This document shows, piece after piece, positions 3,498 through 43,180 of a stretch of DNA of 43,180 nt. Both the position numbers and the translations under genes were made by a program. The notes beneath the pieces were generated by a model. It was not told the DNA's origin and made no database searches. It worked only from the letters and a program-made list of their open reading frames with translations. The DNA is taken from IMG/VR virus record IMGVR_UViG_3300021964_008416, positions 1 through 43,180 of that record; one strand, given 5' to 3'. Origin of the DNA: a virus. How positions within the stretch are numbered: the first letter of the stretch is position 1; every line of letters begins with the position of its first letter.

Positions 3498-4779
3498 ACT
3501 TCTGTCTCTGATACCAATCAAATCTACTCTTTTGTTGCTTACCCACAATAGGACCTTTAAGCCAAAAATCTACTACTAAAGGTCTTTGTTTTTCTGGATG
3601 TTCTCTAATAATTCTACCTATTCTTTGTTCTAACTTAATAGGATTATTACTAGGACAAGTTAGAAATAGAGTATCTAATCTGTGACAACTAATACCTTCA
3701 TCAAATAGCTTTGTACTTAAAACACAATCATATTTTATTCCTACATTTTCAAGTGCTTCTTTTCTTTCTTCTTCTTTTGTAGAGCCTATCATCAAAACAC
3801 TTCTAGGAATCATTTTATTTAATTCTTTTAGCATATCTAATCTATCTGCTAGAATAAGAGGACAACGTCCATTTGCAATTTTTGTAATCGCTGTTTCTGC
3901 CAAAAGCTTTAAATAATTCTTATTGTTAGATAACTTATTTATTTGCCTACTCCAGTCACGCTTTGGATCAAGAACCCTAAAATTAATGTCTGTTGATATA
4001 ATTTCTACTTTTGGTATTTCTAAAACTCTTGGGTCCACCGCAAAAGATTTAAAATCTGTAAAATAATCATCTAGATAAACGTGTTTTCCGTCTTTTCTTC
4101 TTGGAGTTGCTGTAATAGCAATTTTTGCTCTACAATTAACAGAGTTTACTGCTTGAGAAAACATATCTGCAGGACATAAGTGTGCTTCATCTACCACTAA
4201 TAGGCTAAACCTATCATGTAAATCTTCCATATTATTTAGTACACTTTTATAGATACCAACAGTAATATCTTCCACAGCATATAGCCCATCTCCAATTCTG
4301 CCTATATCTACATCAGGGATTTGAGATTCTAATTCGTCGATCCACTGTCTAAATAATAACTTAGTGTGAACTAGTATTAAAGTTTTTTTGTTAGAACGAG
4401 CGATCAAATTACATGCAACATATGTTTTACCCCACCCACAAGGAGCCTGGAATAGACCACTTCTCAATCTATCTCCAATAGAGAAAAAGTCATCAACCAT
4501 GGCCTCTTGCTCAGGTCTAAGCTTACCTTGAAAACTGAATTTAGTATCAGAGTCTTCAAAGTTTCTTAAATCTTCATATTCTGTTAGGGATAATTTTTTG
4601 TAAGAGTTACTAGGGACAGCATAAATGTCTTTTTCTTCATCATATTCATAAGTAAATAGTATCTCATCACCTATATTATACGTATATGCTTGTAAAAAAG
4701 AATCAACATCTTCTATATCATCTGCGTTCATGTATATTTTATCTGTTATTGTGGCGTGTTTTATTACTATTTTATTCAT
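3487..4779 (-). CDS. SF2 DNA/RNA helicase, UvsW-like
   Basis: A 430-residue superfamily 2 helicase. An N-terminal domain of about 85 residues precedes a Q-region (LRPEQEAMVDDF), Walker A (QAPCGWGKT, residues 111-119), motif II DEAH (197-200), motif III TATP (223-226) and motif VI (EQRIGRIIREH). The order and spacing match phage UvsW and XPB/RAD25-type helicases. In T4, UvsW unwinds R-loops and branched DNA and moves replication from origins to recombination forks. The stop overlaps the start region of the next gene, and its own ATG overlaps the stop of the gene at 4776 by four bases. All core motifs are intact. Confidence 0.88.
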   Translation of the reverse strand: MNKIVIKHATITDKIYMNADDIEDVDSFLQAYTYNIGDEILFTYEYDEEKDIYAVPSNSYKKLSLTEYEDLRNFEDSDTKFSFQGKLRPEQEAMVDDFFSIGDRLRSGLFQAPCGWGKTYVACNLIARSNKKTLILVHTKLLFRQWIDELESQIPDVDIGRIGDGLYAVEDITVGIYKSVLNNMEDLHDRFSLLVVDEAHLCPADMFSQAVNSVNCRAKIAITATPRRKDGKHVYLDDYFTDFKSFAVDPRVLEIPKVEIISTDINFRVLDPKRDWSRQINKLSNNKNYLKLLAETAITKIANGRCPLILADRLDMLKELNKMIPRSVLMIGSTKEEERKEALENVGIKYDCVLSTKLFDEGISCHRLDTLFLTCPSNNPIKLEQRIGRIIREHPEKQRPLVVDFWLKGPIVGKQQKSRFDWYQRQKYET

Positions 4780-5279
4780 AAATATGCGGCAATCCTATTG
4801 TGTTTTGAAAAAGAAAATTCTAAGGGATACCATTGATTGTCCACGTATACCAATGTTAGATAATATACATCATTAATGTTAATCTTAGAAGTATTTAATT
4901 TAAAAGGATAACTAATGTTTTCTACCCAAACTAAATTTTCTTTTATTTTTTTAATTTTTTTACAAGTTAACTTAAATTTTTCTTTTGTTGTAAAGTCAAA
5001 TATCTTTGCTTTACTATCCAATCCCCACTTTGTTTTAGAATTTAATATTTCTGATAAATTACGACAAGTATAGTTGAAATTAACTTTAGTATATTTTAGA
5101 TTTAACATCTGTACTTGTCTATTGAAATAGTCTCCTTGTAAAGTTCTATCGTCTAATACTCTCCACTGAGTGTCATTAGACGATAATTGTATTTCTACAG
5201 TATTTAGAGTAAATCTAATATCGTGAGGCTTATCTCTAAGGGCATAAAAAGGATATTCTATGCCCTTAAACTTACTCAT
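4776..5279 (-). CDS. Hypothetical protein between polymerase and helicase
   Basis: A 167-residue protein rich in lysine, asparagine and aromatic residues, with no signal peptide, membrane segment or familiar motif. A lysine-dense patch in the middle (KFKLTCKKIKKIKENLVW) could bind nucleic acid. It is coupled at both ends: its ATG shares its first base with the polymerase stop codon, and its stop overlaps the helicase start by four bases. This suggests balanced expression with the replication enzymes. I do not recognise the family. Confidence 0.6.
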   Translation of the reverse strand: MSKFKGIEYPFYALRDKPHDIRFTLNTVEIQLSSNDTQWRVLDDRTLQGDYFNRQVQMLNLKYTKVNFNYTCRNLSEILNSKTKWGLDSKAKIFDFTTKEKFKLTCKKIKKIKENLVWVENISYPFKLNTSKININDVYYLTLVYVDNQWYPLEFSFSKHNRIAAYL

Positions 5280-7534
5280 TAGTAGTTTTCTAGCTCACCC
5301 CAACTAGGACCTAGTTCAAAATCCATACCGATTGGGCAGTCAGGAATAGAGCATCCCCTATCTTTTTGAATGAAGATTTTTGTTTTAGCAATATAGTCAT
5401 CAACAAGTTCTGTTTTAACTTCTGCAACAATTGAGTCGTGAACAACTGTAAACGGAATAATATCATTTCCTATATTTTCTTCGTCAATCCAATTAATCAA
5501 ATCAATTAGGCCAAACAAGTTAATGTCTGAAGCTACGCTCTGAACCAAGAAGTTAACCCCTGATCTGATTGCGTGTTTAGCAACCCCTGGATTAGGGGAA
5601 CGAGACTCTGGAAGTCTACGTTTTCTACCAAAGAAACTATAAATGTACGCATTATTTTCAATGAAAGTGTTGCTACTATCAATGAAGTTTTTAAGCTGAC
5701 GAGCTTCTTTGAAGTATTTGTTAATGAACATTCTAGCTTCAGCAGTCTCAACTTCTGCAGTTTCCGCAATTTTTGCTGGTCCTGCTTGGTACATGATACC
5801 GAAAGTAATTGCTTTAGCGTGCTGTCTTTTATCTGGGAACAAAGTTTTAACTTCATTAATCTCACATGGCAAGTTAAATATTTGTTTTGCTATATAAGAA
5901 TGGAAGTCGAGTTTATCAATAAAAGCTCGTTGTAAAAACTGGTCATTACTTAGTGCAGCTGCATAATAAACTTCTGCAGTTCCTAAGTCGCCTTGGACAA
6001 TAGTAAAACCGTCTCTAGCTCTAAACATCTTCTTAATATCTTTATTATCACGAGGAATATTCTGATAATTGAGAACTCCAGAACTTGATAGACGACCACT
6101 TGTAGTTCCTTGAATATTAAAACCACTTCTTAGTCTGTGATCTTTGTTAATTCCCTTGATGATATTTGCAATGTAAGTGCCACGGAGCTTATTCTTTTCT
6201 CTTAAATCTAAAACAGCTTCTGCAAGTGGGTGCTCTAGTTCTGATAGAACTTCTTTGTCTACAGACCAAGCACCTGTCGCTGTCTTTTTAGTTGGTTTTA
6301 GCTTCAAGATTGTGAAGAACAAATCTCTAAGTTGAGCAGTACTATTAGGATTAAAAGTTTTTTCATAGATTCTTTCAAATCTTTGAACTGCTTCATGCAT
6401 GAAAATCTCATTCTGACACTCTTCAATATCAATTTCATAATTACTATCTAGTTCTGCCAAAGCTTTAACATCAATAGGTCCACCATTGTTTTCAAGCTTC
6501 ATCAAAGCGCGCGTAGCAGGAATTAATATCTCACTATACAGCTTTTTGAACCTTTGGTTTCCCAAAACTAGTGGCGAAAACTTTTCGTAAAGTTGAAAAG
6601 TAGCGTCAGCATCTTTACAAGCATAAGGGGCGAGAATATCGGTTGGAAGCATACCATAATTGAAATCTTCTAACTTAATTTTATTCTTACGAGCAAAAGT
6701 TTTCTTGTACTCATCTAGTTCTCTTTCGTAGTCTCCTAGATCAGTAAATCTTAGTGCTAAAGGTTTTAACCCATGTGTCCCAACTGCTTCTTCCAAGCAA
6801 TAGTGCATTAGCATAGTATCATCAAAATTTGGAAATTCAAATCCAAATTCATACTTTAAGAACGCAATATCAAACTTTGCATTGTGAAAAATACAGTGTT
6901 TTTCTCTGAAGAGTTTGTGCAAAACAGTATCGTCCTCATCTTTTGCCATTACTTCATCAAGTACTTCGCTTAAAACATAAATACCCTCATGAGGTTGTGT
7001 ACTAAGTGCAATACCTAAAACATTTCCTGTTCTAGGGGATAGGCTAGATGTTTCAATATCAACTACAATCTTATCTGTTGCCTGCATCTTTTCTACATAG
7101 TCATTGAAACTTTTAACATTGTCAATGATTTCATAGTGTTTTTCAACAGTTACAGCAAAGTCTTCTCCAGAAACAATTTCTGGAATTTTATTGAATGCTT
7201 TAATAATCTCATCTTCGTACTGTGGCTTGAATACAATAAGATTAGGGTGCATAATTGGTAAATATTTTTTCTCAATATGCACTCCGTTATACTTTGTAAT
7301 ACCAGTTATTCCTGCAACATACTTTAAGGGCTCTGCCCCTACAGGACAAACAAGCTTATAGCTATCTAACACCGACATGTCCATGTCGATATCTTTCTTT
7401 AAAATCTTTTCTTTAGCGTCTGAGCATAAGAAATGTACATCATAATCCTCAATAGAATCAGGTAAATATTTGTTAATTACTGCTTCAGGATCTTTTTCTG
7501 CCGTTGATGCAAAGACAAAACAAGTATCAGTCAT
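5279..7534 (-). CDS. DNA polymerase I (family A) with 3'-5' exonuclease
   Basis: The 751-residue replicative polymerase. The 3'-5' exonuclease has Exo I (VDIETSSLSP, DIET at 159-162), Exo II (FHNAKFDIAFL) and Exo III (YACKDADATF). The polymerase domain has TTSGRLSSSGVLNYQNIPR, motif A (GDLGTAEVYYAA), motif B (RQHAKAITFGIMYQ) and motif C (FTVVHDSIVAEV). Motif B carries Phe at the position of E. coli F762. Motif A is unusual where most enzymes have DYSQIELR, and motif C has His-Asp-Ser instead of His-Asp-Glu; both catalytic aspartates remain. The first 115 residues are not 5'-nuclease. They resemble the C-terminal half of SPO1-pol-type uracil-DNA glycosylases (VCPVGAEPLKYVAG, ITKYNG, PIMHP). 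The 5' end overlaps the primase gene. Confidence 0.93.
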   Translation of the reverse strand: MTDTCFVFASTAEKDPEAVINKYLPDSIEDYDVHFLCSDAKEKILKKDIDMDMSVLDSYKLVCPVGAEPLKYVAGITGITKYNGVHIEKKYLPIMHPNLIVFKPQYEDEIIKAFNKIPEIVSGEDFAVTVEKHYEIIDNVKSFNDYVEKMQATDKIVVDIETSSLSPRTGNVLGIALSTQPHEGIYVLSEVLDEVMAKDEDDTVLHKLFREKHCIFHNAKFDIAFLKYEFGFEFPNFDDTMLMHYCLEEAVGTHGLKPLALRFTDLGDYERELDEYKKTFARKNKIKLEDFNYGMLPTDILAPYACKDADATFQLYEKFSPLVLGNQRFKKLYSEILIPATRALMKLENNGGPIDVKALAELDSNYEIDIEECQNEIFMHEAVQRFERIYEKTFNPNSTAQLRDLFFTILKLKPTKKTATGAWSVDKEVLSELEHPLAEAVLDLREKNKLRGTYIANIIKGINKDHRLRSGFNIQGTTSGRLSSSGVLNYQNIPRDNKDIKKMFRARDGFTIVQGDLGTAEVYYAAALSNDQFLQRAFIDKLDFHSYIAKQIFNLPCEINEVKTLFPDKRQHAKAITFGIMYQAGPAKIAETAEVETAEARMFINKYFKEARQLKNFIDSSNTFIENNAYIYSFFGRKRRLPESRSPNPGVAKHAIRSGVNFLVQSVASDINLFGLIDLINWIDEENIGNDIIPFTVVHDSIVAEVKTELVDDYIAKTKIFIQKDRGCSIPDCPIGMDFELGPSWGELENY

Positions 7535-8396
7535 TTATACCTCCTAGTAAATAGTTAATTTCTGTTTTTTGTAAATCTCCAGGGTCCCTTCCATAGGGTA
7601 AGCCCACGATTTTTGATTGAATATCCACTTTTTCTAAAAATCCTTTTATTCTTTTTGCTGCTCGTTTACCAGCATCATCTCCGTCCATTAAGATAGTTAC
7701 CTTAACTACTCCTAATTTTTCTAGAATATCAATCTTTTTATTACTAAAATTTGATGTTCCAAAAATACAGACAGTATTTGTATATCCCATTTCCCACATA
7801 TTTAACATATCAAACAAGCCTTCGACTAATATTAGATGTTTTTTATCACTAATAAAGTCAATAGGAAAAAGAATATCAGCACTCTGAGCATTTTGTGGTT
7901 GTCGATAGTATTTTGATTTTCCATTGTTAGAAAACTTATTTCTACCTTCTATAAATCTTAGTTTACCAAATTGATATACAGGTATGCAAAGATAATCTTC
8001 CATATTGTATTCAGAAGTATAGAAAGCTTTAAACTTCTTTAGAGTTTCTAAAGAAATTGTTCTATAAGACTCTTGTACTGGACGAGTATTTTTAGGTAGC
8101 ACAAAGCTACCATATTCTATCTTTTGGTTTAGTTTTTCTCTAAGTTTTCTAATCTTATAAGGTTGCTTACTGGTAATAGGTATTTTTGTGTGAATCCCTA
8201 CAGAAGCAAGAAACTTAGAAGAACCCCCAGAAAAGTTACAAGCCCAACAATGAAATATATTTTTATCTAGATTATATTGCATACTTGGGTTGCTATCATC
8301 ATGTAGTCCACTAGTACATTTCACAAGTATTTCAGAAGGATTATTTGATTTTTTATACTCAATTCCTTTTTTATCTAATATTTCAACTATATCCAC
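7527..8396 (-). CDS. DNA primase, DnaG type (CHC2 zinc finger and Toprim)
   Basis: A 289-residue primase. The N-terminal zinc ribbon uses C27, H32, C50 and C53 (FHCWACNFSGG), and the Toprim domain shows VEGLFD (E192, D196) and ILMDGDDAGKRAA (D238, D240). It makes RNA primers for lagging-strand synthesis. It is shorter than bacterial DnaG because the C-terminal helicase-binding domain is missing, as in phage primases such as T4 gp61. It overlaps the polymerase start by eight bases, and the replicative helicase is two genes upstream, so primase, helicase and polymerase are co-expressed. Confidence 0.9.
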   Translation of the reverse strand: MDIVEILDKKGIEYKKSNNPSEILVKCTSGLHDDSNPSMQYNLDKNIFHCWACNFSGGSSKFLASVGIHTKIPITSKQPYKIRKLREKLNQKIEYGSFVLPKNTRPVQESYRTISLETLKKFKAFYTSEYNMEDYLCIPVYQFGKLRFIEGRNKFSNNGKSKYYRQPQNAQSADILFPIDFISDKKHLILVEGLFDMLNMWEMGYTNTVCIFGTSNFSNKKIDILEKLGVVKVTILMDGDDAGKRAAKRIKGFLEKVDIQSKIVGLPYGRDPGDLQKTEINYLLGGIND

Positions 8397-8659
8397 TAAT
8401 TTCCACCTTCCTCTTGCTGTAAAGCTTTATTAAAAAATTCTGCATCTTCATCTCTAAAAAACCTAAAAGTAATCCCAGAATACTTATCTGGATAGTACGC
8501 TACTCCCCACGTTCCTGTACAGTTTTCCTTACAAACATTAATTAAGTGCTGCACAGACTTATGTTCTTCACATAAGTATTTTGTTTCTATAATAGTTCCA
8601 CTACCCTCACTAGTTAGGTAGCGAGAATTTAACATATTATAAGTTCGTCTCCACATCAT
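8396..8659 (-). CDS. Small hypothetical protein
   Basis: An 87-residue protein between helicase and primase. The start overlaps the helicase stop, with two adjacent ATG codons (8659 and 8656) giving MMWRRTYN. It has three cysteines (YLCEEH, NVCKENC) and aromatic residues near GTWGVAYYPD and GITFRFFRD. I do not recognise it. The gene order helicase-small protein-primase suggests a replication accessory protein, but nothing in the sequence proves this. Confidence 0.55.
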   Translation of the reverse strand: MMWRRTYNMLNSRYLTSEGSGTIIETKYLCEEHKSVQHLINVCKENCTGTWGVAYYPDKYSGITFRFFRDEDAEFFNKALQQEEGGN

Positions 8660-10038
8660 AAGTCTTTATCCTTTTCATCTGATCCAAACATAGCTGCTTT
8701 GTGAGGGTGTTCATTATTAATTTCTGTTATGTTTGGGTTAATCTTTACACAAGGCCAATCCATATACACATCAAAACTCATATGCTTACCGTTTCGAATC
8801 TTTGTAGTGTGAATAGTAATTTTGTTGGTCTGTTCTCTACCTTCTCCTTCTTCTGCAGGAAAAAAGTTAAAACTTCTATCTGCACTATCAAGAATACCCT
8901 TAGAGAATCTAGCTTCGCCTGTAGCATCAATCTGATACGGACTTAGAACTGTAAGGTCATATTTACGACTCATACTCTTTAGAGCTTCAGCAAGAACAAT
9001 CTGACTCTTCCAATCTTTATTATCTTCATGTTTAATGATATTAATATAATCTACTACTGCCATATTATACTTTGGATATTTGTTAGAAAATAGATTACAA
9101 TAATGGTCAATTCTATTTAGAGTTAAAGACTCATCATCAATAATAAACAATCTGTGATCTTTTAATTCTGGCTTTTCAATTTTTAAGTAGTTTTCAAACT
9201 TTTTAAAATCTTTATCTGTTACCAGGTTTTTAACTTGTAGATCAAGTTCACTATTTGGTTTATAGAAAGTTTCTATCTTTGCTTTCACAATAGACAGTTT
9301 TTCAGTTTCTGTTAACTTGTTTCTAAAGATATTGAGAAAAGGAACTTCACTAATAATACTTAAGATACGATCATAAACTTCTTTGTATCTCATTTCAATA
9401 GTAAAAAATCCTACAGTATTTCCTTGTAAGAATCTATTTAAAGCTAAATTCACACTTATGATAGATTTACCACTACCTCTTCTACCTCCAAGAAGTACAA
9501 GTTCTTGAGAAGCAAATCCACCATTTACAGCGTCATACTCAGCACTAAGACCAGAGGTGTAAATTTTAAAATCATCATCGTCTGGAAATAGTTCAAGTTC
9601 CGCAACATCATATAACTCATCAGCCATTGGAATAGCTTGATTAAGATTTAACAGATGTGTTTGAAATTTGTCCACAATTTCAACTTTTTCTAAGTCATCT
9701 AAGTTATCAATAAAATTGTCCAAAAATCCGATTGTCTCTTCCCGGATATAAAAATCCTGTAGCTGAGAAACCAAAAACTCGTTTTGGACATCGTCAGCTC
9801 TATTTTCTTCATCAATAATTTCTGTTTCTAAGTACTCTTGTGTTGATAAATCCTTTTTGAGAGCTACAAACTCATCAATGGAAGGAATTCTCATATTAGC
9901 TTTATAAAAACTTTGAATCTTTCTATATATAATAGAGTTAGCGCCACTAAAATAGGGCGCTACCAATTTTGAATATAAGTCGTGATTTTGTGTTTCTAAA
10001 AGTCTTCGTAAAGTTACTTTTTGTAAGTCTAATGTCAT
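8656..10038 (-). CDS. Replicative DNA helicase, DnaB/gp41-like
   Basis: A 460-residue RecA-fold hexameric helicase. A helical N-terminal region of about 150 residues precedes the core with Walker A (GGRRGSGKS, 184-192), a following VGFFTIEMRYKEVYDR stretch as in DnaB (motif H1a), Walker B (MAVVDYINII), and the sensor region AEALKSMSRKYDLTVLSPYQ. It would unwind the fork ahead of the family A polymerase and partner with the primase encoded two genes downstream. The stop overlaps the next start. The C-terminus is acidic/basic mixed (FGSDEKDKDL). Confidence 0.9.
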   Translation of the reverse strand: MTLDLQKVTLRRLLETQNHDLYSKLVAPYFSGANSIIYRKIQSFYKANMRIPSIDEFVALKKDLSTQEYLETEIIDEENRADDVQNEFLVSQLQDFYIREETIGFLDNFIDNLDDLEKVEIVDKFQTHLLNLNQAIPMADELYDVAELELFPDDDDFKIYTSGLSAEYDAVNGGFASQELVLLGGRRGSGKSIISVNLALNRFLQGNTVGFFTIEMRYKEVYDRILSIISEVPFLNIFRNKLTETEKLSIVKAKIETFYKPNSELDLQVKNLVTDKDFKKFENYLKIEKPELKDHRLFIIDDESLTLNRIDHYCNLFSNKYPKYNMAVVDYINIIKHEDNKDWKSQIVLAEALKSMSRKYDLTVLSPYQIDATGEARFSKGILDSADRSFNFFPAEEGEGREQTNKITIHTTKIRNGKHMSFDVYMDWPCVKINPNITEINNEHPHKAAMFGSDEKDKDL

Positions 10039-10817
10039 TAATTACTCTTTATTGGAAATAAGTTTTCTCTAAGTTCATCTCTAAAATGCCCATAGTCTCC
10101 GTCTACGAAGATTCTGTAATATTCTCGTCCAGTTTCTTCAATTACACTTTCTGTGTATCTAATCTTTTCTTTAATTGCCATTTCTTTCCATTCACTACCG
10201 TCTTCATACTGCCAATAGATATTCCAATGAACATCTTCGCGACCTTCAAAATCGGTTCCATACTTTTTCTTGGCAGCTTCAAGTCCATGTAGCTCTACAT
10301 AACGACGACGTTCTGGTTGACGATGATAATCAATCCATTCTTCGTCAAACACTTGTTTTACTTTTCCAAAAGAGTTAATCTTAGGAATGAAAACTCTATC
10401 ACCTTCTTTAAAGATAACATCTAAGTCTTGGACAACGTGATCTACCTTTGCTTCTCCGCGCTTTGATCTTGCACGGATAGGTACATTCATTTCAATAAGA
10501 ACATTCTTAATACGTTGTGGTGATGCATATAAGCGTGTAGCAATAGCTGATTGACTCTCGCTATTGTTATAGTCGTTTACAATTTGCTTCTTTTCTGCCT
10601 CTGTAAAAGGTGTTTTAGAACGTTTTTTCTTTAATTCTTTGAGGCGAGTCTCTCTATCTTGAAATTCTTGCAAAATAGTATCAAGACGCTTTGTGTTATA
10701 TGCAATACCCAAATGCCCACAAATAGACTTTTTAGTCTTATTTGCTTTTACCATCCAGATTGCTTGTCTGATTTTTGTTTCAGAAATTTCGTTTGTTTTT
10801 GTAGCGGCTCTTGCCAT
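10038..10817 (-). CDS. DNA-binding protein with two helix-turn-helix units, first gene of replication operon
   Basis: A 259-residue protein. The N-terminal half shows two HTH-like units: about 13-50 (ETKIRQAIWMVKANKTKKSI, AYNTKRLDTIL) and about 70-115 (FTEAEKKQIVNDYN, SQSAIATRLYASPQRIKNVL), the second like a homeodomain/resolvase-type HTH. The remainder has a KOW/SH3-like stretch (FKEGDRVFIPKINSFGKVKQ) and a C-terminal domain rich in aromatics and charge. It is the first gene behind a strong promoter and has a good ribosome-binding site (TAGGAGATAG). It could be a replication initiator, origin-binding protein or transcription factor; none is proven. Confidence 0.65.
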   Translation of the reverse strand: MARAATKTNEISETKIRQAIWMVKANKTKKSICGHLGIAYNTKRLDTILQEFQDRETRLKELKKKRSKTPFTEAEKKQIVNDYNNSESQSAIATRLYASPQRIKNVLIEMNVPIRARSKRGEAKVDHVVQDLDVIFKEGDRVFIPKINSFGKVKQVFDEEWIDYHRQPERRRYVELHGLEAAKKKYGTDFEGREDVHWNIYWQYEDGSEWKEMAIKEKIRYTESVIEETGREYYRIFVDGDYGHFRDELRENLFPIKSN

Positions 10818-10839
10818 AAACTATCTCCTATTTTTCTTT

Positions 10840-10868
10840 ATTTTAACACAAAGAAAGATAGCTGTCAA
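10840..10868 (-). promoter_or_regulatory. Sigma70-type promoter of the replication operon
   Basis: On the minus strand TTGACA (10868-10863) is followed after exactly 17 bases by TAAAAT (10845-10840). The -35 is perfect and the -10 matches five of six. The predicted start near 10833 leaves a short leader with TAGGAGAT before the ATG at 10817. It would drive the block from 10817 down to 850. Confidence 0.8.
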
Positions 10869-10887
10869 ATAAAATATTGCTTACTGA

Positions 10888-11088
10888 TTACCAATGGCGT
10901 ATCGCATTCGCTATGATAGCGCAGCAAGTAACTATATGAAGTATGATCCAAAAGGTTCTAAGAGCTAAAGCGCGTTTTACACTTCTTTGTGTAATAGGTA
11001 AAAATGTAGGTTCGTCATCGTCAGTTATACCTATTGGCATACCAACAACGCGAGCCCACATTTTTAAAAATTGCCTTTGACCGCTCAC
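10888..11088 (-). CDS. Small membrane protein coupled to uvdE
   Basis: A 66-residue protein with one C-terminal hydrophobic helix (TFWIILHIVTCCAIIANAI) after an amphipathic N-terminus. Its ATG overlaps the uvdE stop by four bases, so it is translated with uvdE. The next gene downstream has its own promoter. No function is recognisable; the single anchor and small size fit a tail-anchored protein. Confidence 0.5.
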   Translation of the reverse strand: MSGQRQFLKMWARVVGMPIGITDDDEPTFLPITQRSVKRALALRTFWIILHIVTCCAIIANAIRHW

Positions 11089-12158
11089 AGGGTTTTACAC
11101 ACTAGAGGTTCTCCAGCCATTTCTTCTTCTTCTTTGATAAACTTGTAAAAACGAGCAATAGCATATTCTTTGTTTTTTGCTTCTACATCAAAGTCTGCAT
11201 ACTCAAGCATAGGTACTGCAAGAGACATTAGCTCTTCATCATGGTAAACATCAGAATGTGCATTTACCTTCATCCAATAGTTTTCGTTATCTATAGGAAA
11301 TGATTGCGACTTGTGAAATAGTGGACGACGACCTTTCCAGGTTTTTACTGCTTCTTTGAAAAAATCATCATTAACAGTAATATGCTCTACTTCATCTCTA
11401 ATTTTTCTATTAACTATATCACCTTTTGAATTCTTAACTTTTTCAGAAGTTTTCATTCGGTGACACGCGTAATGATGGATATCTAAAGTGCACTTAATAG
11501 GAATTCGTTGTGCAAGCTCTAACGTATGTTCAATGTCATAACCGTTAGGTTTGTCTTCGTTTTCCACTGACAATGCTTTTTGAGCATAGTCTGAAAGATA
11601 CTCAAAGTTAGTTGCGAATCGTTTAATTCCATCTTCATGTTTTCCGCCATACAGACCTTGCAAATGAATATTTACTGAAAAGTCTTCTGCAGGAATACCC
11701 ATTGATTTTCCGATCAGACAATGATACTCAATGTCTTCAATTGCTTTTTTAACAACTTCTTTGTCTCGACTCCCAAGCACTGTATATTGTCCTGGGTGCA
11801 TAGATAGTCTAATTTCTTTTTCTAAAGCAACTTTACCTGCTAGTCTTAGTTTCTCAATTAGTAAGCCAATAAATCCGTCATAGAATTCTTGTGCTTCTGG
11901 AAGAGTATACACAGGAAACATGTCAGAGGTCATTCGATAACAACGAAAGTTCTCTGGTTGAGTTCCTAGATACTCCATAATCCACTTTAGCTTATCTACG
12001 TTACGAGTAGCAGCTGTTCTGGCTCTTGAATTATCTTTCAAGAAATATGTTTTTGTAGTTGTGTTAGCATTAAACTTAGTAGCTAAGTCTTTGTCGTGAA
12101 ATTGACAACATAGACCGAGCCGCCAGTTTTTACTTGTTTTGTTAAAATATTGTTCCAT
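11085..12158 (-). CDS. uvsE: UV damage endonuclease, UvdE/UvsE family
   Basis: A 357-residue TIM-barrel nuclease. UvdE enzymes nick DNA 5' to UV photoproducts and start excision repair without photolyase. Visible family features are the N-terminal LGLCCQF, NVDKLKWIMEYLG, the metal-site segment IRLSMHPGQYTVLGS, a later CTLDIHHYACHRMK and a HAHSDVYHDE-like metal-binding end (KVNAHSDVYHDEEL). The ribosome-binding site GGAGTAAGT lies just before the ATG. Transcription probably starts at the promoter embedded in the terminator immediately upstream. Such a gene suits a phage of sunlit surface water. Confidence 0.88.
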   Translation of the reverse strand: MEQYFNKTSKNWRLGLCCQFHDKDLATKFNANTTTKTYFLKDNSRARTAATRNVDKLKWIMEYLGTQPENFRCYRMTSDMFPVYTLPEAQEFYDGFIGLLIEKLRLAGKVALEKEIRLSMHPGQYTVLGSRDKEVVKKAIEDIEYHCLIGKSMGIPAEDFSVNIHLQGLYGGKHEDGIKRFATNFEYLSDYAQKALSVENEDKPNGYDIEHTLELAQRIPIKCTLDIHHYACHRMKTSEKVKNSKGDIVNRKIRDEVEHITVNDDFFKEAVKTWKGRRPLFHKSQSFPIDNENYWMKVNAHSDVYHDEELMSLAVPMLEYADFDVEAKNKEYAIARFYKFIKEEEEMAGEPLVCKTL

Positions 12159-12170
12159 ACTTACTCCATA

Positions 12171-12209
12171 AAAAAAAGTCTTAGGTTTATTATATAAAAC
12201 CTAAGACTT
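12171..12209 (-). terminator. Rho-independent terminator after the 12231-12548 gene
   Basis: On the minus strand a 13-bp perfect stem AAGTCTTAGGTTT/AAACCTAAGACTT (12209-12197 and 12188-12176) with an eight-base AT loop is followed by a run of T. It lies 21 bases after the stop of the 12231-12548 gene and ends just before the uvdE ribosome-binding site. Confidence 0.8.
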
Positions 12210-12217
12210 CTTGTAAA
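12189..12217 (-). promoter_or_regulatory. Promoter overlapping the terminator, for uvdE
   Basis: TTTACA (12217-12212) is followed after 17 bases by TATAAT (12194-12189). The -10 box occupies the terminator loop and the spacer covers its left arm. The predicted start near 12182 lies in the right arm, so the uvdE message would keep only half of the hairpin. Confidence 0.65.
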
Positions 12218-12230
12218 TATATATTTTGAT

Positions 12231-12548
12231 TTAATGTGTTATCAAATGATCGTCTGTAAAATACAAATCGTTTACTACGTCTCTTATCAAACCTTGTTTT
12301 GTATACACAATAGTAAAACATTCTTGAAGAAGGGCATTATTCCTATAAAGATGTTCTATTAAGAACCCTGTCCTGTAACTCAGTTGAAGATGTGAATATT
12401 CTTCTGAGTCAGGTTCAACTTTTGGAAAATATTGCTCAATTAAATGGCGAATGTACTTACTTTTTTCTCGTTCTTCGAGAGCTATTATTGTAGCTAAAGT
12501 ATCGTCTTCTAATTCACCTAGTGTTAATTCTTCTTCATTATAAATCAT
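12231..12548 (-). CDS. Small acidic hypothetical protein
   Basis: A 105-residue acidic protein starting MIYNEEELTLGELEDD, with helical repeats (EEREKSKYIRHLIEQYF). It is flanked by terminator hairpins on both sides. No Shine-Dalgarno sequence is visible: the bases before the ATG are the T-rich tail of the preceding terminator hairpin, and I see no separate promoter. It is therefore probably expressed at low level by read-through. No family is recognised. Confidence 0.55.
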   Translation of the reverse strand: MIYNEEELTLGELEDDTLATIIALEEREKSKYIRHLIEQYFPKVEPDSEEYSHLQLSYRTGFLIEHLYRNNALLQECFTIVYTKQGLIRDVVNDLYFTDDHLITH

Positions 12549-12550
12549 AA

Positions 12551-12587
12551 ATAAAAGAAGTTACAGAGGCGTGACCTCTGTAACTTC
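12551..12587 (-). terminator. Terminator after the four-HTH-repeat gene
   Basis: A perfect 13-bp stem GAAGTTACAGAGG/CCTCTGTAACTTC (12587-12575 and 12569-12557) with a five-base loop, followed on the minus strand by TTTTATTTA. It lies about 25 bases after the stop of the 12612-13295 gene and ends eight bases before the next ATG. The T tract is interrupted, so some read-through is plausible. Confidence 0.75.
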
Positions 12588-12611
12588 AGGCTACATTAAA
12601 TAGCTTCCTTA

Positions 12612-13295
12612 TTAGTCGTCTGCACCCTTTGGAGTGTAGTCAGCGCAGGATAGACCACGGCGTGTAAGAACAGTCTTAACACCACGAACTGTCTTGCCAA
12701 AGCTCTCGGCAATTGCCTCAACTGACTGGTCAAGCATGTCCTCAATACCTTCGTAAGGATCGGACTTCGCGGCCTTCTTGTTCTTCTGCTCGGCCTTTAG
12801 ACCCATGCTTAGAAGCTTACCACGGATTGAGTTGACGCTCTTGCCAACTGACTCTGCGATATCCTCAAGGAAGGCGCCGTCTTCAACCATAGAAGCAATC
12901 TGGCTTTCCTCATCAGCGGTGTAGGTCTTTGGTGTGATCTTCTTCTCAGCTGGCTTAATGTGCTGAGTCATCTCAAGTGATAGAGCCTTACCGTTGATCT
13001 GACGAGCGGTGAACTTACCACCCTCAAATGTGTCGGCAACCTCTTCAGCGGTGTGAACACCACTGTTAGATTCTAGGAACTGGGCTAGCGCCTCTGTCTC
13101 TTCGGCTGAGAAAACAGGTGCTGCACCTGGCTTCTTAGGAACATCGTAACCTAGCTTGCGTAGCTTGGCGGTTACGGAACGACGAGGAAACTCAAACTCG
13201 TCAACTAGAGCCTCAATAACGTCTTCTGTGACGCCACTGGAAGCTGCTTCGGTCATACGAGTAATCATCTCGTCGGTGTAATCAAACTTACTCAT
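12612..13295 (-). CDS. DNA-binding protein made of four tandem Myb/HTH-like units
   Basis: A 227-residue protein built from four related units of about 45 residues. Each starts with an aromatic plus acidic helix and ends with a recognition-like helix: YTDEMITRM...SVTAKLRKLGYDVP; FSAEETEAL...ARQINGKALSLEM; YTADEESQI...SIRGKLLSMGLKAE; YEGIEDML...GVKTVLTRRGLSCADY. The pattern is that of SANT/Myb or GcrA-type HTH modules. Codons are richer in G and C at third positions than in the neighbours. The gene has tandem promoters, a strong AGAGGGG ribosome-binding site and its own terminator, so it is likely abundant. A phage nucleoid-like protein or global regulator is my inference. Confidence 0.7.
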   Translation of the reverse strand: MSKFDYTDEMITRMTEAASSGVTEDVIEALVDEFEFPRRSVTAKLRKLGYDVPKKPGAAPVFSAEETEALAQFLESNSGVHTAEEVADTFEGGKFTARQINGKALSLEMTQHIKPAEKKITPKTYTADEESQIASMVEDGAFLEDIAESVGKSVNSIRGKLLSMGLKAEQKNKKAAKSDPYEGIEDMLDQSVEAIAESFGKTVRGVKTVLTRRGLSCADYTPKGADD

Positions 13296-38831: not shown

Positions 38832-38860
38832 ACTTATAGATGTAGTATACCTTTTTTTTT
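38822..38860 (+). terminator. Strong terminator after the lysis genes
   Basis: AAGGTATACTAC (38822-38833) pairs perfectly with GTAGTATACCTT (38842-38853) over 12 bp with an eight-base loop, and a T run follows. It separates the lysis operon from the downstream unit. Confidence 0.85.
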
Positions 38861-38876
38861 GTTTTGGAGATGGTTA

Positions 38877-39155
38877 ATGGAAATATTTGCACTAATAGGA
38901 GAAGTAGGGTTTCCAATAGCCGCTGCAATGGCTGGTGGTTATTTTGTTTTTCTAACAATGCGTTTCATACTTGATGGTGTCATGGATTCTGTAAATCGAA
39001 TGAAAGGTATCATCGGTGCTTTAGACAATAGAGTACAAACGATGAATCACGACATTATTAGAATTGACACGCTAATGAGTAATGCATTCGATGTTACTCC
39101 AGATATAAACAGAATTGCACGAGCTGACGGAAAGAACGATGCGAGGAAAGATTAA
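38877..39155 (+). CDS. Holin-like small membrane protein, paralogue A
   Basis: The ATG at 38877 with GGAGATGG upstream gives 92 residues. One hydrophobic segment (GFPIAAAMAGGYFVFLTMRF) is followed by a charged helix (RMKGIIGALDNRVQTMNHDI). The same plan and several identical residues are seen in the protein at 39355-39621, so the two are paralogues. One transmembrane segment plus a soluble coiled tail resembles class III holins or BhlA-type proteins. It is the first gene behind the embedded promoter. Confidence 0.6.
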   Translation: MEIFALIGEVGFPIAAAMAGGYFVFLTMRFILDGVMDSVNRMKGIIGALDNRVQTMNHDIIRIDTLMSNAFDVTPDINRIARADGKNDARKD

Positions 39156-39364
39156 TGAGAGATAAACCAGTATGGTGGAGTGATTATATGCTTCGACTTG
39201 ATCCAAACGGTAATATCACGATAATTGGTGATACTGAAACAGAACTTCTTGATAAAGGACTATTTCAAAAAGATGATATTTTCATAGTCAACAGTAAAGG
39301 TGTTCTGGTTAAATCAGAACCTCTAATGACAGTTATGAAGGACGCCTACAAAAAATGGATATAG
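39155..39364 (+). CDS. Small hypothetical protein between the paralogues
   Basis: A 69-residue soluble protein (MRDKPVWWSDYMLRLDPNGN, then ITIIGDTETELLDKGLFQKD), coupled to the upstream stop by TAATG and overlapping the next start by ten bases. It has a beta-strand look and no signal peptide. Function unknown. Confidence 0.5.
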   Translation: MRDKPVWWSDYMLRLDPNGNITIIGDTETELLDKGLFQKDDIFIVNSKGVLVKSEPLMTVMKDAYKKWI

Positions 39365-39621
39365 CAGAATTAATTAAGGATTTTGGCTTTCCGATTGTCG
39401 CAGCAGTTGGTCTTGGCTATTTCGTTTACTATGTTTGGACCTGGGCAACAAAACAGATTGACCCAGTGATCAATGATGCCAATATCACATTGATTGGATT
39501 GATCGACCGTGTTCGTATGCTTGATAATGATTTGATTCGTCTCAATCAAAAACTGAATATGATTTTAGAATTTCAAAGAAAGTTAGAAAATGAGAAGAAG
39601 AAAAATGAAACACAAAAGTGA
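39355..39621 (+). CDS. Holin-like small membrane protein, paralogue B
   Basis: An 88-residue protein, MDIAELIKDFGFPIVAAVGL, with one membrane segment (GFPIVAAVGLGYFVYYVWTW) and a C-terminal helix (IDRVRMLDNDLIRLNQKL). It aligns by eye with paralogue A over the GFPI..A...GYFV and LDN..I.....I..D/L..L parts. The pair could form hetero-oligomers or a holin/antiholin set. It overlaps csgF by 17 bases. Confidence 0.6.
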   Translation: MDIAELIKDFGFPIVAAVGLGYFVYYVWTWATKQIDPVINDANITLIGLIDRVRMLDNDLIRLNQKLNMILEFQRKLENEKKKNETQK

Positions 39622-40150
39622 ACACGAAGCCAGAGCATGGGAAATGGCAATGAAGACTGTCCTTTACTATTATGACGGATGGGATCTATTCAAAGCAAGT
39701 ATTTTCGGATTTGTATTTGGTTTTATGATTGGATTTCTATTAGGTATTAGTGTGGCATATGCATCAGAGCTCAGGCATAGTTATAAATCCCCAGCTTTTA
39801 ATGGACAGGGATTCAGCTCTCATGTTTTGACGATTGAGAATTTAACTTTTCAAAGAAAAGCTGATATAAAAGCTAGAGAAGAATCTGAAGCAAGAGAGGC
39901 TGCAAGATCTGCAGAAAATACAAATATAAATAAGTTTATGAAAAACTTTGAAAGTAGAGTTTATGCAGAGCTAAGTAAACAGTTAAGTGAAAAATTATTT
40001 GGAGAAGCAGCCGAGGAAAGCGGGACAATTGAAATTTTAGGAAACACTATAGAATATAATAGTGATGGAACTAATTTAACAATGACAGTAATTGAAGCGA
40101 CAGGGACTACTACTACCCTTACTGTTCCGTTATCTGGTTTTGGCTTTTAG
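39605..40150 (+). CDS. csgF: CsgF-like curli assembly protein
   Basis: The ATG at 39605, with AGAAG in front, gives 181 residues. After a long signal region (WDLFKASIFGFVFGFMIGFL, cleavage near AYA/SEL) come LRHSYKSPAFNGQGFSSHVL, the N-terminal CsgF motif that plugs the CsgG pore, and a C-terminal part IEILGNTIEYNSDGTNLTMT then TTTLTVPLSGFGF, as in CsgF. CsgF caps CsgG on the cell surface and helps subunits nucleate. The charged stretch before the hydrophobic core is unusually long for a signal peptide (about 30 residues). It is followed 12 bases later by csgG. Confidence 0.85.
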   Translation: MKHKSEHEARAWEMAMKTVLYYYDGWDLFKASIFGFVFGFMIGFLLGISVAYASELRHSYKSPAFNGQGFSSHVLTIENLTFQRKADIKAREESEAREAARSAENTNINKFMKNFESRVYAELSKQLSEKLFGEAAEESGTIEILGNTIEYNSDGTNLTMTVIEATGTTTTLTVPLSGFGF

Positions 40151-40162
40151 TAAGGATGACTG

Positions 40163-40939
40163 ATGGTAAGATGTTTATTACTAATTCCTATGCTTTTTTT
40201 GGTAGGGTGTCAAGCTTTTATGGAAGAGCTTGCCTCTCCGCCTACACTGTCTGAAACACCACTAAAGGAAACTCTTTACGACTTTCCTCCTATCGCAAAC
40301 GGTAACCCTATAACTGTAGCAGTTTATAGTTTTACTGATAAAACTGGACAAAGAAAACCGGCTGATACGTTAGCAAATTTAAGCAGCGCTGTTACCCAAG
40401 GAGCGGAAATTTACTTAATTAAAGCTTTGATGGATTTAAGTGATGGAAACTTTTTTCAAGTTGTTGAGCGTAGTGGGTTAGATGCTTTAATTAAAGAAAG
40501 ACAATTAATTAGAAACACTCGTGAAAACTTTGAAGGGGACAATGCGAAGAAACTTGGTCCCTTGAAATTTGCAGGAATTATGATTGAGGGCGGTATTGTT
40601 GGGTATGATTCTAATAAATTTACTGGAGGCACTGGAGTAAGATGGCTAGGGGTAGGACCTCAAGCTGAGTGGAGAGTAGATGTTGTTACTGTTGGACTGA
40701 GAGCTATTAGCGTTTTAACGGGCGAAGTGTTAATGGCTATAACAACTGAGAAAACGATATTAAGCACAAGCGCAGGTATAAATATTTTTAAGTTTTTTGA
40801 TATGGGAACAAAAGTTTTAGAAATCGAATCTGGAACCTCAACAAACGAGCCAGTAAATTACGCAGTTCGTCAAGCAATTGAGGCGGCTGTTATTGGCCTT
40901 GTTAAGGAAGGAAAAAGAAAGAGGTTATGGGATTTTTAG
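40163..40939 (+). CDS. csgG: CsgG-like outer-membrane secretion pore
   Basis: A 258-residue lipoprotein with lipobox LVGC (Cys16). The CsgG fold is visible as ITVAVYSFTDKTGQ, VTQGAEIYLIKALMD, FFQVVERSGLDALIKERQL, then GIMIEGGIVGYDSNKFTGGT and TVGLRAISVLTGEVLMAI. CsgG forms a nonameric ring that secretes unfolded curli subunits across the outer membrane. Length and motif order match the bacterial family. With CsgF upstream and two curlin-like genes downstream it forms a curli-type export unit. Confidence 0.92.
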   Translation: MVRCLLLIPMLFLVGCQAFMEELASPPTLSETPLKETLYDFPPIANGNPITVAVYSFTDKTGQRKPADTLANLSSAVTQGAEIYLIKALMDLSDGNFFQVVERSGLDALIKERQLIRNTRENFEGDNAKKLGPLKFAGIMIEGGIVGYDSNKFTGGTGVRWLGVGPQAEWRVDVVTVGLRAISVLTGEVLMAITTEKTILSTSAGINIFKFFDMGTKVLEIESGTSTNEPVNYAVRQAIEAAVIGLVKEGKRKRLWDF

Positions 40940-40952
40940 GAGAGCTATAATT

Positions 40953-41645
40953 ATGTATAGAATATTAACTATGTTATTAATATTGTTCTCTACTACTGTT
41001 TTGGCGGATAACGAAATTTATATAGATCAAACAGGAAGTAGCGCAACTATTAATATTAATCAGGATGGCACAAGCAACCGTGTCGGTTCTAGCAGTGCTG
41101 ATAGTGTCAGTGATGGCGCTACAACCACTATGGATATTGATCAAGTAGGCACTAGTAATACTCTAGATTATAATATTTATGGAGATACTGCAAATATTAC
41201 CTCTAATATTACAGGTAACTCTTCTGATATAGACATTGATATCGGTACTACTGGTGGATCTAATGGTGGTAGCGATGACGTAAATGTAACAATTAACGCC
41301 AGTGGAGGTAACTCTAATACTGTAGATGTTAATGTTGGAGCAACTTCGTCAGGTGTTGATGATGTTGATATTGATGTTGATATCAGTGGTGGGTCAAACT
41401 CTGTAACTATTACAGAAGAGTCAACTGCCACAAGTATTACAGATAAGATTACTGATGTTGATATTACTGGCAGCACAAATACTGTTACTATTAGTAAGAG
41501 TGGCGCTTCTCAGCACGATACTACTTTAAATCATACAGGTAGTAGTAGTACTTTTAGTGTTACTCAGTCGGGAGCGGAGGCAAGTACCGTAGATGTTACA
41601 ACAGATGGTAGTAGTTCTTCTGTTACTGTTACTGTTTCCGATTAA
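40953..41645 (+). CDS. Secreted curlin-like repeat protein
   Basis: The ATG at 40953 (AGGAGAGC upstream) gives 230 residues with a signal peptide MYRILTMLLILFSTTVLA. The mature protein is nearly all Gly, Ser, Thr, Asn, Asp, Ile and Val in repeats such as IYIDQTGSSATININQDGTS and MDIDQVGTSNTLDYNI, later VDVNVGATSSGVDDVDIDVD. This is the look of CsgA/CsgB curlin amyloid repeats (Q..G..N.....Q), with Asp often in place of Gln. No cysteines. It is the most likely substrate of CsgG. The 3' end overlaps the FecR gene by 53 bases. Confidence 0.8.
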   Translation: MYRILTMLLILFSTTVLADNEIYIDQTGSSATININQDGTSNRVGSSSADSVSDGATTTMDIDQVGTSNTLDYNIYGDTANITSNITGNSSDIDIDIGTTGGSNGGSDDVNVTINASGGNSNTVDVNVGATSSGVDDVDIDVDISGGSNSVTITEESTATSITDKITDVDITGSTNTVTISKSGASQHDTTLNHTGSSSTFSVTQSGAEASTVDVTTDGSSSSVTVTVSD

Positions 41646-42657
41646 TTCGTTTGCAGCGGTAGGAAAAGTTGAGCAAAATACAGGAACCGCAGAACTTTTA
41701 AGAAGTAAAGATAAACTTGTTGTTGAAAAAGACCTTGGTATAGAGATGAATGATGATGTTCGCACTGGAAACGGTGTGGTTCGTATAGGTTTTGATGACA
41801 AAACAAAAGTAAAAATTGAAAAACACTCTAAGTTAGTAATTGATGATTTTGTTTATGATTCTAACTCTCCATCAACAAGTAAACTTGGTTTGAAAGTTAC
41901 TCTTGGTACTGTTAAATACGCTAGTGGTTTGATTGCTAAAAACAATAAACAAGCTGTTGCAATCAGTACTCCTACTGCTCGAATTGGTGTTCTGGGAACA
42001 TCTTTTAGTATGACTGTAGATGAAGTTGGCAAGTCTTTAATTATTCTATTACCAGATGCGAACGGAACTGTAGGTGAAATTAAAGTTGAGTCAGATGTTG
42101 GACAAGTAATCTTAAATCAGGCGTATCAAGCGACCGTAGTAGGTGCAGCTGAATCGACCCCTACACCCCCAGTGATTTTAGATTTATCTGAAGCTCAGAT
42201 TAATAACTTATTGATCGTTCGCAAACCAAAGGAAAAAGAAGAAGAGGTATCAAATGAAAAAGGTGTACTAGATTTTAACGAGCTTGATATAAATTTATTA
42301 GATAAAGACGCTTTAAATAAAGATGAGTTAGTTTTTACAAGATTAGATTTTAATTTATTAGATGTAGACTTACTTCTAAATATACTTGATGTATTAAATT
42401 CTAAAATATTTGAGCAAGTAGAAGCGTTCCCGACTAACCCTATTCGACCAGGACAGTACGAAGAAGGAAATACACAAATTTTTGGTGGAGACACTGAAGA
42501 TTGGGAGATATACAGACAAGTAGATGGAAGAATAGTTAGTATAAAAGTTGGAAACTATTCACAAACACAAATACAACTTAATCAGGCAGGTAGTAATGTC
42601 ATACTCCATACTCAAGAAAACGCTTCTGATTCTCTCATTATTATTAATCAGAACTGA
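41593..42657 (+). CDS. Secreted FecR-domain protein with curlin-like C-terminus
   Basis: A 354-residue protein; signal peptide MVVVLLLLLLFPINSFA (Met5 may be the start). Residues about 22-150 are a FecR domain: VGKVEQNTGTAELLRSKDKL, VRTGNGVVRIGFDDKTKVKI, then ISTPTARIGVLGTSF. Leucine/aspartate-rich repeats follow (LDFNELDINLLDKDALNKDE). The last part (VSIKVGNYSQTQIQLNQAGS, then QENASDSLIIINQN) looks like one curlin repeat. FecR domains are usually periplasmic sensors, but here the protein has no membrane anchor and could be a scaffold or anchor on the amyloid. It begins and ends inside neighbouring curlin genes. Confidence 0.8.
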   Translation: MLQQMVVVLLLLLLFPINSFAAVGKVEQNTGTAELLRSKDKLVVEKDLGIEMNDDVRTGNGVVRIGFDDKTKVKIEKHSKLVIDDFVYDSNSPSTSKLGLKVTLGTVKYASGLIAKNNKQAVAISTPTARIGVLGTSFSMTVDEVGKSLIILLPDANGTVGEIKVESDVGQVILNQAYQATVVGAAESTPTPPVILDLSEAQINNLLIVRKPKEKEEEVSNEKGVLDFNELDINLLDKDALNKDELVFTRLDFNLLDVDLLLNILDVLNSKIFEQVEAFPTNPIRPGQYEEGNTQIFGGDTEDWEIYRQVDGRIVSIKVGNYSQTQIQLNQAGSNVILHTQENASDSLIIINQN

Positions 42658-43180
42658 AGCACTAGCAGACAATGCGATTACCATAGAACAGGTTACTAGT
42701 GGTAACTCAAACAGTATTACTGTATCAGTAGAAGGTAGTGGCAACACAGTAGACTATAGTTTTGGTGGTGCGAGTAATACAGTAGACATTGACCAAAAAG
42801 GTGACAATAGTTATGTTGGATACACCTCAGCATGGGGTAGTAGTGCTACTTGGGGTGGTGACTTGGATGGTGACAGTAACAATCTAAATGTTACACAGAC
42901 ATGTAATCAATCTCCATGTGGCGGTGATAAGTTTGAGTTTCATATAGTAGGCAATTCTAATGATGTTGATTTCTATCAAGGACACAGAGTTGATGCTGAC
43001 GGAACACTACATAGTATAGATGATTATGAATATGGTGGACATTTTACACGATTAGATATTCATGGTTCTAACAATAAGTTTTTGGGAAGTCAACGCTCAA
43101 ATAACTCAGGACACGAACATTCAAACATTACAAATATCTATGGTAGTAATAATGATGTTTATACAAGACAGGAAAGTAAC
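42596..43180 (+). CDS. Second secreted curlin-like protein, cut off by window end
   Basis: The ATG at 42596 opens a frame of 195 codons to the window edge. It has a signal peptide (MSYSILKKTLLILSLLLIRT, EALA then DNAITIEQ) and repeats such as GNSNSITVSVEGSGNTVDY, NTVDIDQKGDNSYVGYT, GNSNDVDFYQ, GSNNKFLGS and GSNNDVYTRQ. Unlike the first curlin it has a CNQSPCGG pair that may form a disulfide. Its repeat style (GxxN.V) is that of curlins. It overlaps the FecR gene by 62 bases. The C-terminus lies outside the window. Confidence 0.78.
   Translation, partial: MSYSILKKTLLILSLLLIRTEALADNAITIEQVTSGNSNSITVSVEGSGNTVDYSFGGASNTVDIDQKGDNSYVGYTSAWGSSATWGGDLDGDSNNLNVTQTCNQSPCGGDKFEFHIVGNSNDVDFYQGHRVDADGTLHSIDDYEYGGHFTRLDIHGSNNKFLGSQRSNNSGHEHSNITNIYGSNNDVYTRQESN

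Follow-up and report, generated by a model that had tools for sequence, protein, structure and literature searches.

A curli export module with its own candidate substrates

A virus that encodes a curli-type export apparatus raises the question of what is exported through it and to what end. We addressed this question for the IMG/VR virus record IMGVR_UViG_3300021964_008416, a linear record of 43,180 bp that was analyzed in its entirety and is called the window here. On its plus strand, positions 39605-43180 hold, in this order, csgF, csgG, a gene for a curlin-like protein (curlin 1), a gene for a FecR-domain protein, and a gene for a second curlin-like protein (curlin 2). A first-pass annotation had read these genes as a curli export system that a phage carries together with substrates for it, and our analysis upholds this: CsgF is matched, the curlins are matched at the profile level, and a solenoid fold is predicted. 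We propose, at slightly better than even confidence, that this phage locus encodes a type VIII (curli) secretion module by which infected cells export adhesive curli-like fibres.

The matches to PF10614 (CsgF), PF03783 (CsgG), and PF04773 (FecR) all exceeded their cut-offs. The gene ends overlap or almost touch, as first described, with 53 nucleotides (nt) shared by curlin 1 and the FecR-domain gene and 62 nt by the latter and curlin 2. The gene set stood as annotated, with two amendments: the contig stops before curlin 2 is complete, and the module is larger, taking in two genes for small membrane proteins on its upstream side (38859-39621) and, in relatives, a CHASE2-adenylate cyclase gene downstream. 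By visual inspection alone, a signal peptide or lipobox is present in each of the five module proteins (LVGC in CsgG, A-x-A-type sites in the others). Relative to the nearest related viral locus, L003, the module genes showed nonsynonymous differences (pN) of 0.09-0.26 and synonymous differences (pS) of 0.66-0.85, curlin 2 excepted. This strong purifying selection, which includes curlin 1 (pN far below pS), indicates that the open reading frames (ORFs) from csgF to curlin 2 are real genes.

The csgF gene (39605..40150, 181 amino acids (aa)) matched PF10614 at 53 bits against a cut-off of 25.8 (E = 4.8e-14) and phrog_35372 with E = 2e-39. Its product begins with a long N-terminal signal or anchor ending in SVAYA, from which export was judged by eye, and continues with SELRHSYKSPAFNGQGFSSH. 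The adjoining csgG (40163..40939) encodes a 258-aa lipoprotein predicted to be the outer-membrane export pore (PF03783, E = 2e-49). The CsgG family profile matched solved CsgG over its full length (E = 1e-74), and the lipobox Cys1 was kept in all 52 viral sequences.

Curlin 1 (40953..41645, 230 aa) consists of a signal peptide ending in VLA followed by curlin-like repeats. A search with PF07012, suggested in the first-pass annotation, left the two single curlin-like proteins just under the cut-off of 20.7 bits (15.5 and 20.0, the latter for curlin 2); the curlin assignment held at the family level. Seventeen of 29 curlin 1 family members matched PF07012 at E ≤ 0.01, and a profile built from the 29 relatives matched the solved curlin 8c50 (E = 5e-10) and E. 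coli CsgA 8enq (E = 6e-5) in the PDB. Since Gln/Gly/Asn-rich repeats can inflate curlin profile scores, a structure model matters here, and the fold of the repeat proteins had been named beforehand as one of the points on which the curli proposal could fail. AlphaFold2 modelled curlin 1 as a beta-solenoid of 18 strands, two per turn, with an irregular period of ~22-30 residues (predicted local distance difference test, pLDDT, 88; predicted template-modelling score, pTM, 0.84). Curlin 1 is also steady in length, with a 5th-95th percentile range of 223-324 aa.

Curlin 2 (42596..43180; the first 195 aa are visible) is 92% identical in its visible part to a complete 267-aa protein of L002/L003, with pN 0.04 and pS 0.19 against L003. 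Its relatives vary in length (5th-95th percentile, 174-797 aa). Among 28 curlin 2 proteins, 19 matched PF07012 (E ≤ 0.01), four matched PA14 (best E = 1.9e-14), and three matched GLEYA. An N-terminal domain of the PA14/GLEYA kind is fused to curlin repeats in L007, L018, L019/L020, L021/L023/L024/L029, and L031-L034, and 30 of 48 curlin 2 proteins are capped at the C terminus by a pair of cysteines (C...GC...Q). PA14/GLEYA domains of yeast flocculins bind carbohydrates. Because curlin 2 is variable and carries such lectin-like domains in some relatives, it is probably an adhesin-type subunit. These domains lend support to the earlier idea that an infected cell coats itself or adheres by means of the module.

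The nucleotide identity to L003 is ~60-80% up to position 42515 and then ~94% within curlin 2 (42515-43180 versus L003 12350-13013). This jump reflects either a recent exchange or recombination of curlin 2 or a chimeric contig end.

The module is kept as a set across viral loci

We analyzed the conservation of the module by searching IMG/VR with CsgG, which gave 75 loci, of which 45 were left after dereplication (CsgG >95% identical removed). Because the loci were gathered by CsgG similarity to the window phage, they sample relatives of its module, and presence was counted only where the flank was long enough. CsgF was found in 45/45 dereplicated loci, curlin 1 in 42/42, and FecR in 37/37. The CHASE2-adenylate cyclase lay within 8 kb in 23/23, and a second curlin was present in 18/23. 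The pair of small membrane proteins lay within 2 kb upstream, directly before csgF, in 20 of 40. Pore and export substrates are thus retained together, indicating that the module is not a lone pore.

An exported FecR-domain protein and a CHASE2 cyclase

The FecR-domain protein (41593..42657, +, 354 aa) scored 34.7 bits with PF04773 against a cut-off of 24 and matched phrog_37870 over its whole length (E = 3e-83). In the structure model, a signal peptide is followed by a FecR domain at ~23-190, a disordered linker at ~207-280, and a beta-rich, curlin-like tail at 287-353. The modelled domain matched the solved periplasmic FecR domains 6ovk (E = 2.6e-4) and 4m0h (E = 2.9e-4) with a probability of 1.00. 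An I-x-I-x-Q strand like that of the final curlin repeat closes 40 of 40 distinct FecR tails compared with 27 of 713 unrelated control ORFs, counts that are not independent, the tails being related to one another. This tail may let the FecR-domain protein touch the curlins. The FecR domain also superposed on 5ix9, an adhesin anchoring domain, with a root-mean-square deviation of 1.0 Å over 61 columns (sequence E = 0.024), at most a lead towards a role as a retention plug.

The overlapping gene ends place signal peptides and curlin-like strands on the same DNA. The FecR signal peptide (41593-41655) shares its DNA, in a different frame, with the final curlin-like strand of curlin 1, and the curlin 2 signal peptide (42596-42670) likewise with that of the FecR-domain protein. 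Comparable overlaps of a signal peptide with the preceding strand were seen in many relatives. We rejected the idea that the likeness of the FecR tail to curlin is a by-product of its overlap with the curlin 2 signal peptide, since the motif is present in 45/45 genes that overlap by 4 nt or less.

In relatives, the gene downstream of curlin 2 encodes a protein of ~690 aa with a CHASE2 domain (E = 2e-39) and a class III cyclase domain (E = 3e-16). The window ends inside curlin 2, and no cyclase lies within it. In 115 alphaproteobacterial genomes, 25 of 116 CHASE2 genes had a strong FecR match within 5 kb, compared with ~0.33 expected from density on the assumption of ~3.6 Mb per genome. Clusters of CHASE2 cyclase and FecR genes have been reported in Campylobacterota (PMC9239204), and in Sinorhizobium the cyclic AMP (cAMP) regulator Clr targets a FecR-domain protein (PMC5498481). 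The Campylobacterota and alphaproteobacterial clusters resemble the viral arrangement in that a FecR-domain gene stands beside a CHASE2 cyclase, but they are generally not joined to curli genes. These data are best explained by a sensing pair, made up of FecR and the CHASE2 cyclase, that is joined to the curli genes.

An earlier study of ocean phages read FecR as an iron-dependent regulator and the genes upstream of csgF as histidine kinases (PMC9599517); the sequence here supports neither. The FecR-domain protein has no cytoplasmic anti-sigma part, as its signal peptide begins at residue 1 and its FecR domain at about residue 54, and no FecI-like gene is near. We therefore rejected an iron or sigma (anti-sigma, FecIRA-type) regulator. 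Sigma region-2 gave no match in the window and weak matches only in three of 15 related virus records; in the two phages that allowed placement, these matches are distant from the module.

The two upstream genes, transmembrane protein 1 (TM1; 38859..39155, +, 98 aa) and TM2 (39355..39621, +, 88 aa, overlapping the csgF start), are paralogues, each with one membrane segment, N-terminal in TM1, and a coiled coil. Both matched phrog_18771 (E = 5e-30 and 3e-30), as did all 26 family members. No histidine-kinase or ATPase Pfam match was obtained in TM1 or TM2. With no kinase domain in these proteins, which we equated with the published genes by position, the name histidine kinase does not apply.

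Relation to known curli systems

The module is not new, and the suggestion that it goes beyond what is known has to be withdrawn: the complete set of csgF, csgG, curlin, fecR, second curlin, and cyclase has been described in podo- and myo-pelagiphages, some of them uncultured, together with expression in ocean metatranscriptomes (PMC9599517, 2022). These HTVC023P-type podophages and pelagimyophages share with the window the small upstream gene or genes, then csgF, csgG, curlin, fecR, and the second curlin, and carry the adenylate cyclase; they likewise have no csgC, csgD, or csgE. The main text of that study mentions neither PA14 nor CHASE2. An earlier report described csgF and csgG with unassigned neighbours in pelagimyophages and proposed "sibling capture" (PMC7029224, 2020), and another gave the pore a lysis role in phage Melnitz, said to be without csgA and csgB (PMC9004378, 2022). 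What is new here is the T5-like carrier described below, the FecR/CHASE2 reading, the adhesin-like domains in curlin 2 relatives, the conserved set, and the reassignment of TM1 and TM2.

Two cultured phages carry the same order of genes. In Pelagibacter phage HTVC008M (KC465899, 5296-13807), the order includes the TM pair and the cyclase, with CsgG 46% and FecR 52% identical to the window proteins. Its GenBank record already names curlin. It differs in being a T4-like myophage (Kyanoviridae) of SAR11, and its record lists the products of fecR and curlin 2 as hypothetical. Methylophilales phage Melnitz (MZ577097) has a CsgG that is 42% identical, and its GenBank record names two curlin-repeat proteins, FecR, and a cyclase, contrary to the text of PMC9004378.

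The E. coli csgBAC-csgDEFG system shares with the phage module a full-length CsgG homologue, a CsgF homologue, and curlin repeats. The phage module differs from it in that no CsgE, CsgC, or CsgD was found and in adding FecR and, in relatives, the CHASE2 cyclase. A locus on a chromosome-like contig of a gammaproteobacterial metagenome-assembled genome (MAG), L090/L110, has the order curlin-csgF-csgG-curlin-curlin-fecR and is likewise without CsgE; it has no TM pair and no adjacent cyclase. It is the sole bacterial curli locus with an adjacent FecR among those read, and the contig is bacterial because it carries acyl-CoA dehydrogenases and a pyruvate phosphate dikinase-like gene. Just upstream of its curli genes, L090 encodes an exported protein with no Pfam match (8176-8685).

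Proposed function and alternatives

For the timing of expression, fibre formation, the role of FecR, and adhesion with its benefit, we infer the following scheme. Late in infection, the host Sec pathway would export five phage proteins. The CsgG lipoproteins would form an outer-membrane pore whose outer end is capped by CsgF. Curlin 1, as the conserved filament subunit, and curlin 2, as the variable subunit, would be secreted through this pore, and on the infected cell they would build fibres of amyloid type with a beta-solenoid fold. After its export, the FecR-domain protein would stay in the periplasm or at the fibre base by means of its curlin-like tail and, with the CHASE2-adenylate cyclase, would report the state of export to cytoplasmic cAMP. 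Through these fibres the infected cell would become adhesive, as would the debris it leaves behind, so that uninfected cells are brought near the burst or the cell attaches to particles. This adhesive-fibre proposal is favored because the substrates are universally kept, curlin 1 is under purifying selection, and the second subunit is adhesin-like in relatives. A more far-reaching version, in which unrelated phage lineages share a host-built adhesive amyloid fibre with an exchangeable lectin-like curlin 2 and a FecR-CHASE2-cAMP feedback sensor of export, is one we hold only tentatively.

Several observations weigh against the adhesive-fibre proposal. The PA14/GLEYA domains belong to relatives, and none lies in the visible part of the window curlin 2. 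Foldseek with the curlin 1 model returned no solved solenoid or curlin at significance. The FecR tail scored weakly with the curlin profile (median 2.8 bits, compared with -0.5 for shuffled copies), and the viral FecR profile found a match in only three of the 30 strongest CHASE2 loci. No fibre or clumping has been seen in any cultured carrier phage, and for Melnitz cytometry and transmission electron microscopy showed no clumping (PMC9004378). A csgE gene, which had been hoped for beyond position 43180, went undetected in the 15 related virus records, some of them fragments (PF10627, no match). CsgE enhances export in the E. coli curli system. It is not universal in curli systems, since it was also not found in four alphaproteobacterial genomes and one gammaproteobacterial genome that bear csgF, the kinds nearest the viral module; in five gammaproteobacteria, a CsgE gene lies beside csgF. 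A general replacement of CsgE by FecR was rejected, as the four alphaproteobacterial curli genomes lack both CsgE and a curli-adjacent FecR.

Among the alternatives, superinfection exclusion ranks highest, though we regard it as unlikely. Here a fibre coat would mask receptors and keep rival phages off, as proposed in PMC9599517. The recurrence of the module in different lineages, including a T5-like one, is what would be expected of a competition gene, and glycosyltransferase-like genes are present in the window. The lectin-like PA14/GLEYA domains on the curlin 2 of relatives, however, point to binding rather than masking. Next comes a role in lysis timing, to which we assign a small chance. 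Following PMC9004378, CsgG with or without CsgF would act as a gated outer-membrane pore or pinholin analogue, and the curlins would be cargo or plugs. The gene neighborhood speaks for it: directly upstream of the TM pair and on the same strand lie genes for a lysozyme (from 37269), an Rz-like spanin (from 37911), and a lipoprotein resembling an outer spanin (from 38314). The TM proteins themselves may be holin-like; 9 of 26 family members weakly match the holin family phrog_4898 (best E = 5e-5; TM1, 23 bits). Relatives of these lysozyme and spanin genes, however, occur in only 1, 3, and 6 of the 77 loci searched, which places the lysis neighborhood outside the conserved module, while curlins and FecR are universal; moreover, lysis needs neither substrates nor an adhesin-type subunit. 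The lysis idea raised in the first-pass annotation has accordingly lost some ground.

We consider improbable a role in nutrient or macromolecule uptake, in which an ungated CsgG pore would widen outer-membrane permeability during infection. It would agree with the CsgE result in the 15 virus records and with the residues Tyr51, Asn55, and Phe56, which we take to form the constriction of E. coli CsgG: Tyr51 is absent from all listed viral CsgG, and Phe56 is replaced by Leu in 27 of 52. Tyr51 is also missing, however, from the bacterial CsgG proteins used for comparison, among them those of CsgE-bearing genomes, so that its absence is no sign of a viral pore opening. We rejected a virus-specific widening of the constriction for this reason, as bacterial CsgG outside E. 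coli differ at the same sites. Uptake also leaves the retention of two curlins, CsgF, and FecR unexplained. Least probable, and by our estimate very improbable, is a decoration of virions by curlins as adhesive fibres; the presence of curlins fits it and nothing further does, and substrates that all bear Sec signal peptides would leave the cytoplasm, where virions assemble.

To our knowledge, SAR11 and similar open-ocean bacteria have no curli genes. In phages of such hosts, purifying selection maintains the full curli module, and infection would therefore add a surface structure that is otherwise absent. With the lectin-like domains of curlin 2 in relatives, the curlin-like FecR tail, and the pairing of FecR with CHASE2, what had been a loosely defined "biofilm gene" can be split into separate questions, namely what each subunit binds and whether export is sensed. 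Should fibres indeed be made, they would matter for the search of phages for hosts in dilute water and for the formation of particles.

The carrier phage and related loci

Seven window proteins (2363-13295) are collinear with those of Vibrio phage Ceto (Demerecviridae) at 27-45% identity, namely D5, replicative helicase, primase, DNA polymerase, a small protein, a helicase, and a D11-region protein. By these matches, the window phage has a T5-like replication block, making it a third phage type for the module after podo- and myophages. Given this block, the module passes between very different phages. Thirteen contigs with close polymerase relatives, many of them fragments, lack CsgG, which fits a sporadic gain of the module. 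An assignment to the HTVC023P-type podophages was rejected, as HTVC023P has counterparts to no more than two window proteins. The 30 window ORFs scanned with PHROGs included no recognizable capsid, tail, or terminase gene, only a lysozyme match to tail-lysozyme families, the contig being incomplete.

At the other end of the window, positions 3-545 (minus strand) encode a membrane protein 88% identical to the product of the gene right after the cyclase in L003. Relatives of this protein also occur in the T5-like contigs L150, L156, L158, and L159, and its GVPVSTS motif, seen by eye and without a Pfam match, is reminiscent of PiT phosphate permeases. With respect to the curli module, the gene is on a different strand in the window than in L003, and circular closure of the contig through it was not supported for this reason.

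Some of the loci collected show further variations. A CsgG of ~390-420 aa is encoded in L037 (10001-11170) and in loci like it, on contigs that reach 214 kb; in L037 it ends in a bacterial SH3 domain (PF06347, E = 1e-7). These loci also carry giant second curlins of up to 797 aa. CsgG close to the viral ones was also found on MAG contigs filed as Rhodobacteraceae, Pirellulales, Flavobacteriaceae, and Pelagibacter (L079-L085, L094). Most of these contigs carry much of the viral-type module, and they are probably phage contigs binned with bacteria. Finally, a 1.5-kb record of Salmonella phage S.Kent 1-2-1 (OR851715.1) contains an unannotated CsgG at 229-948 that is 39% identical and may be host DNA.

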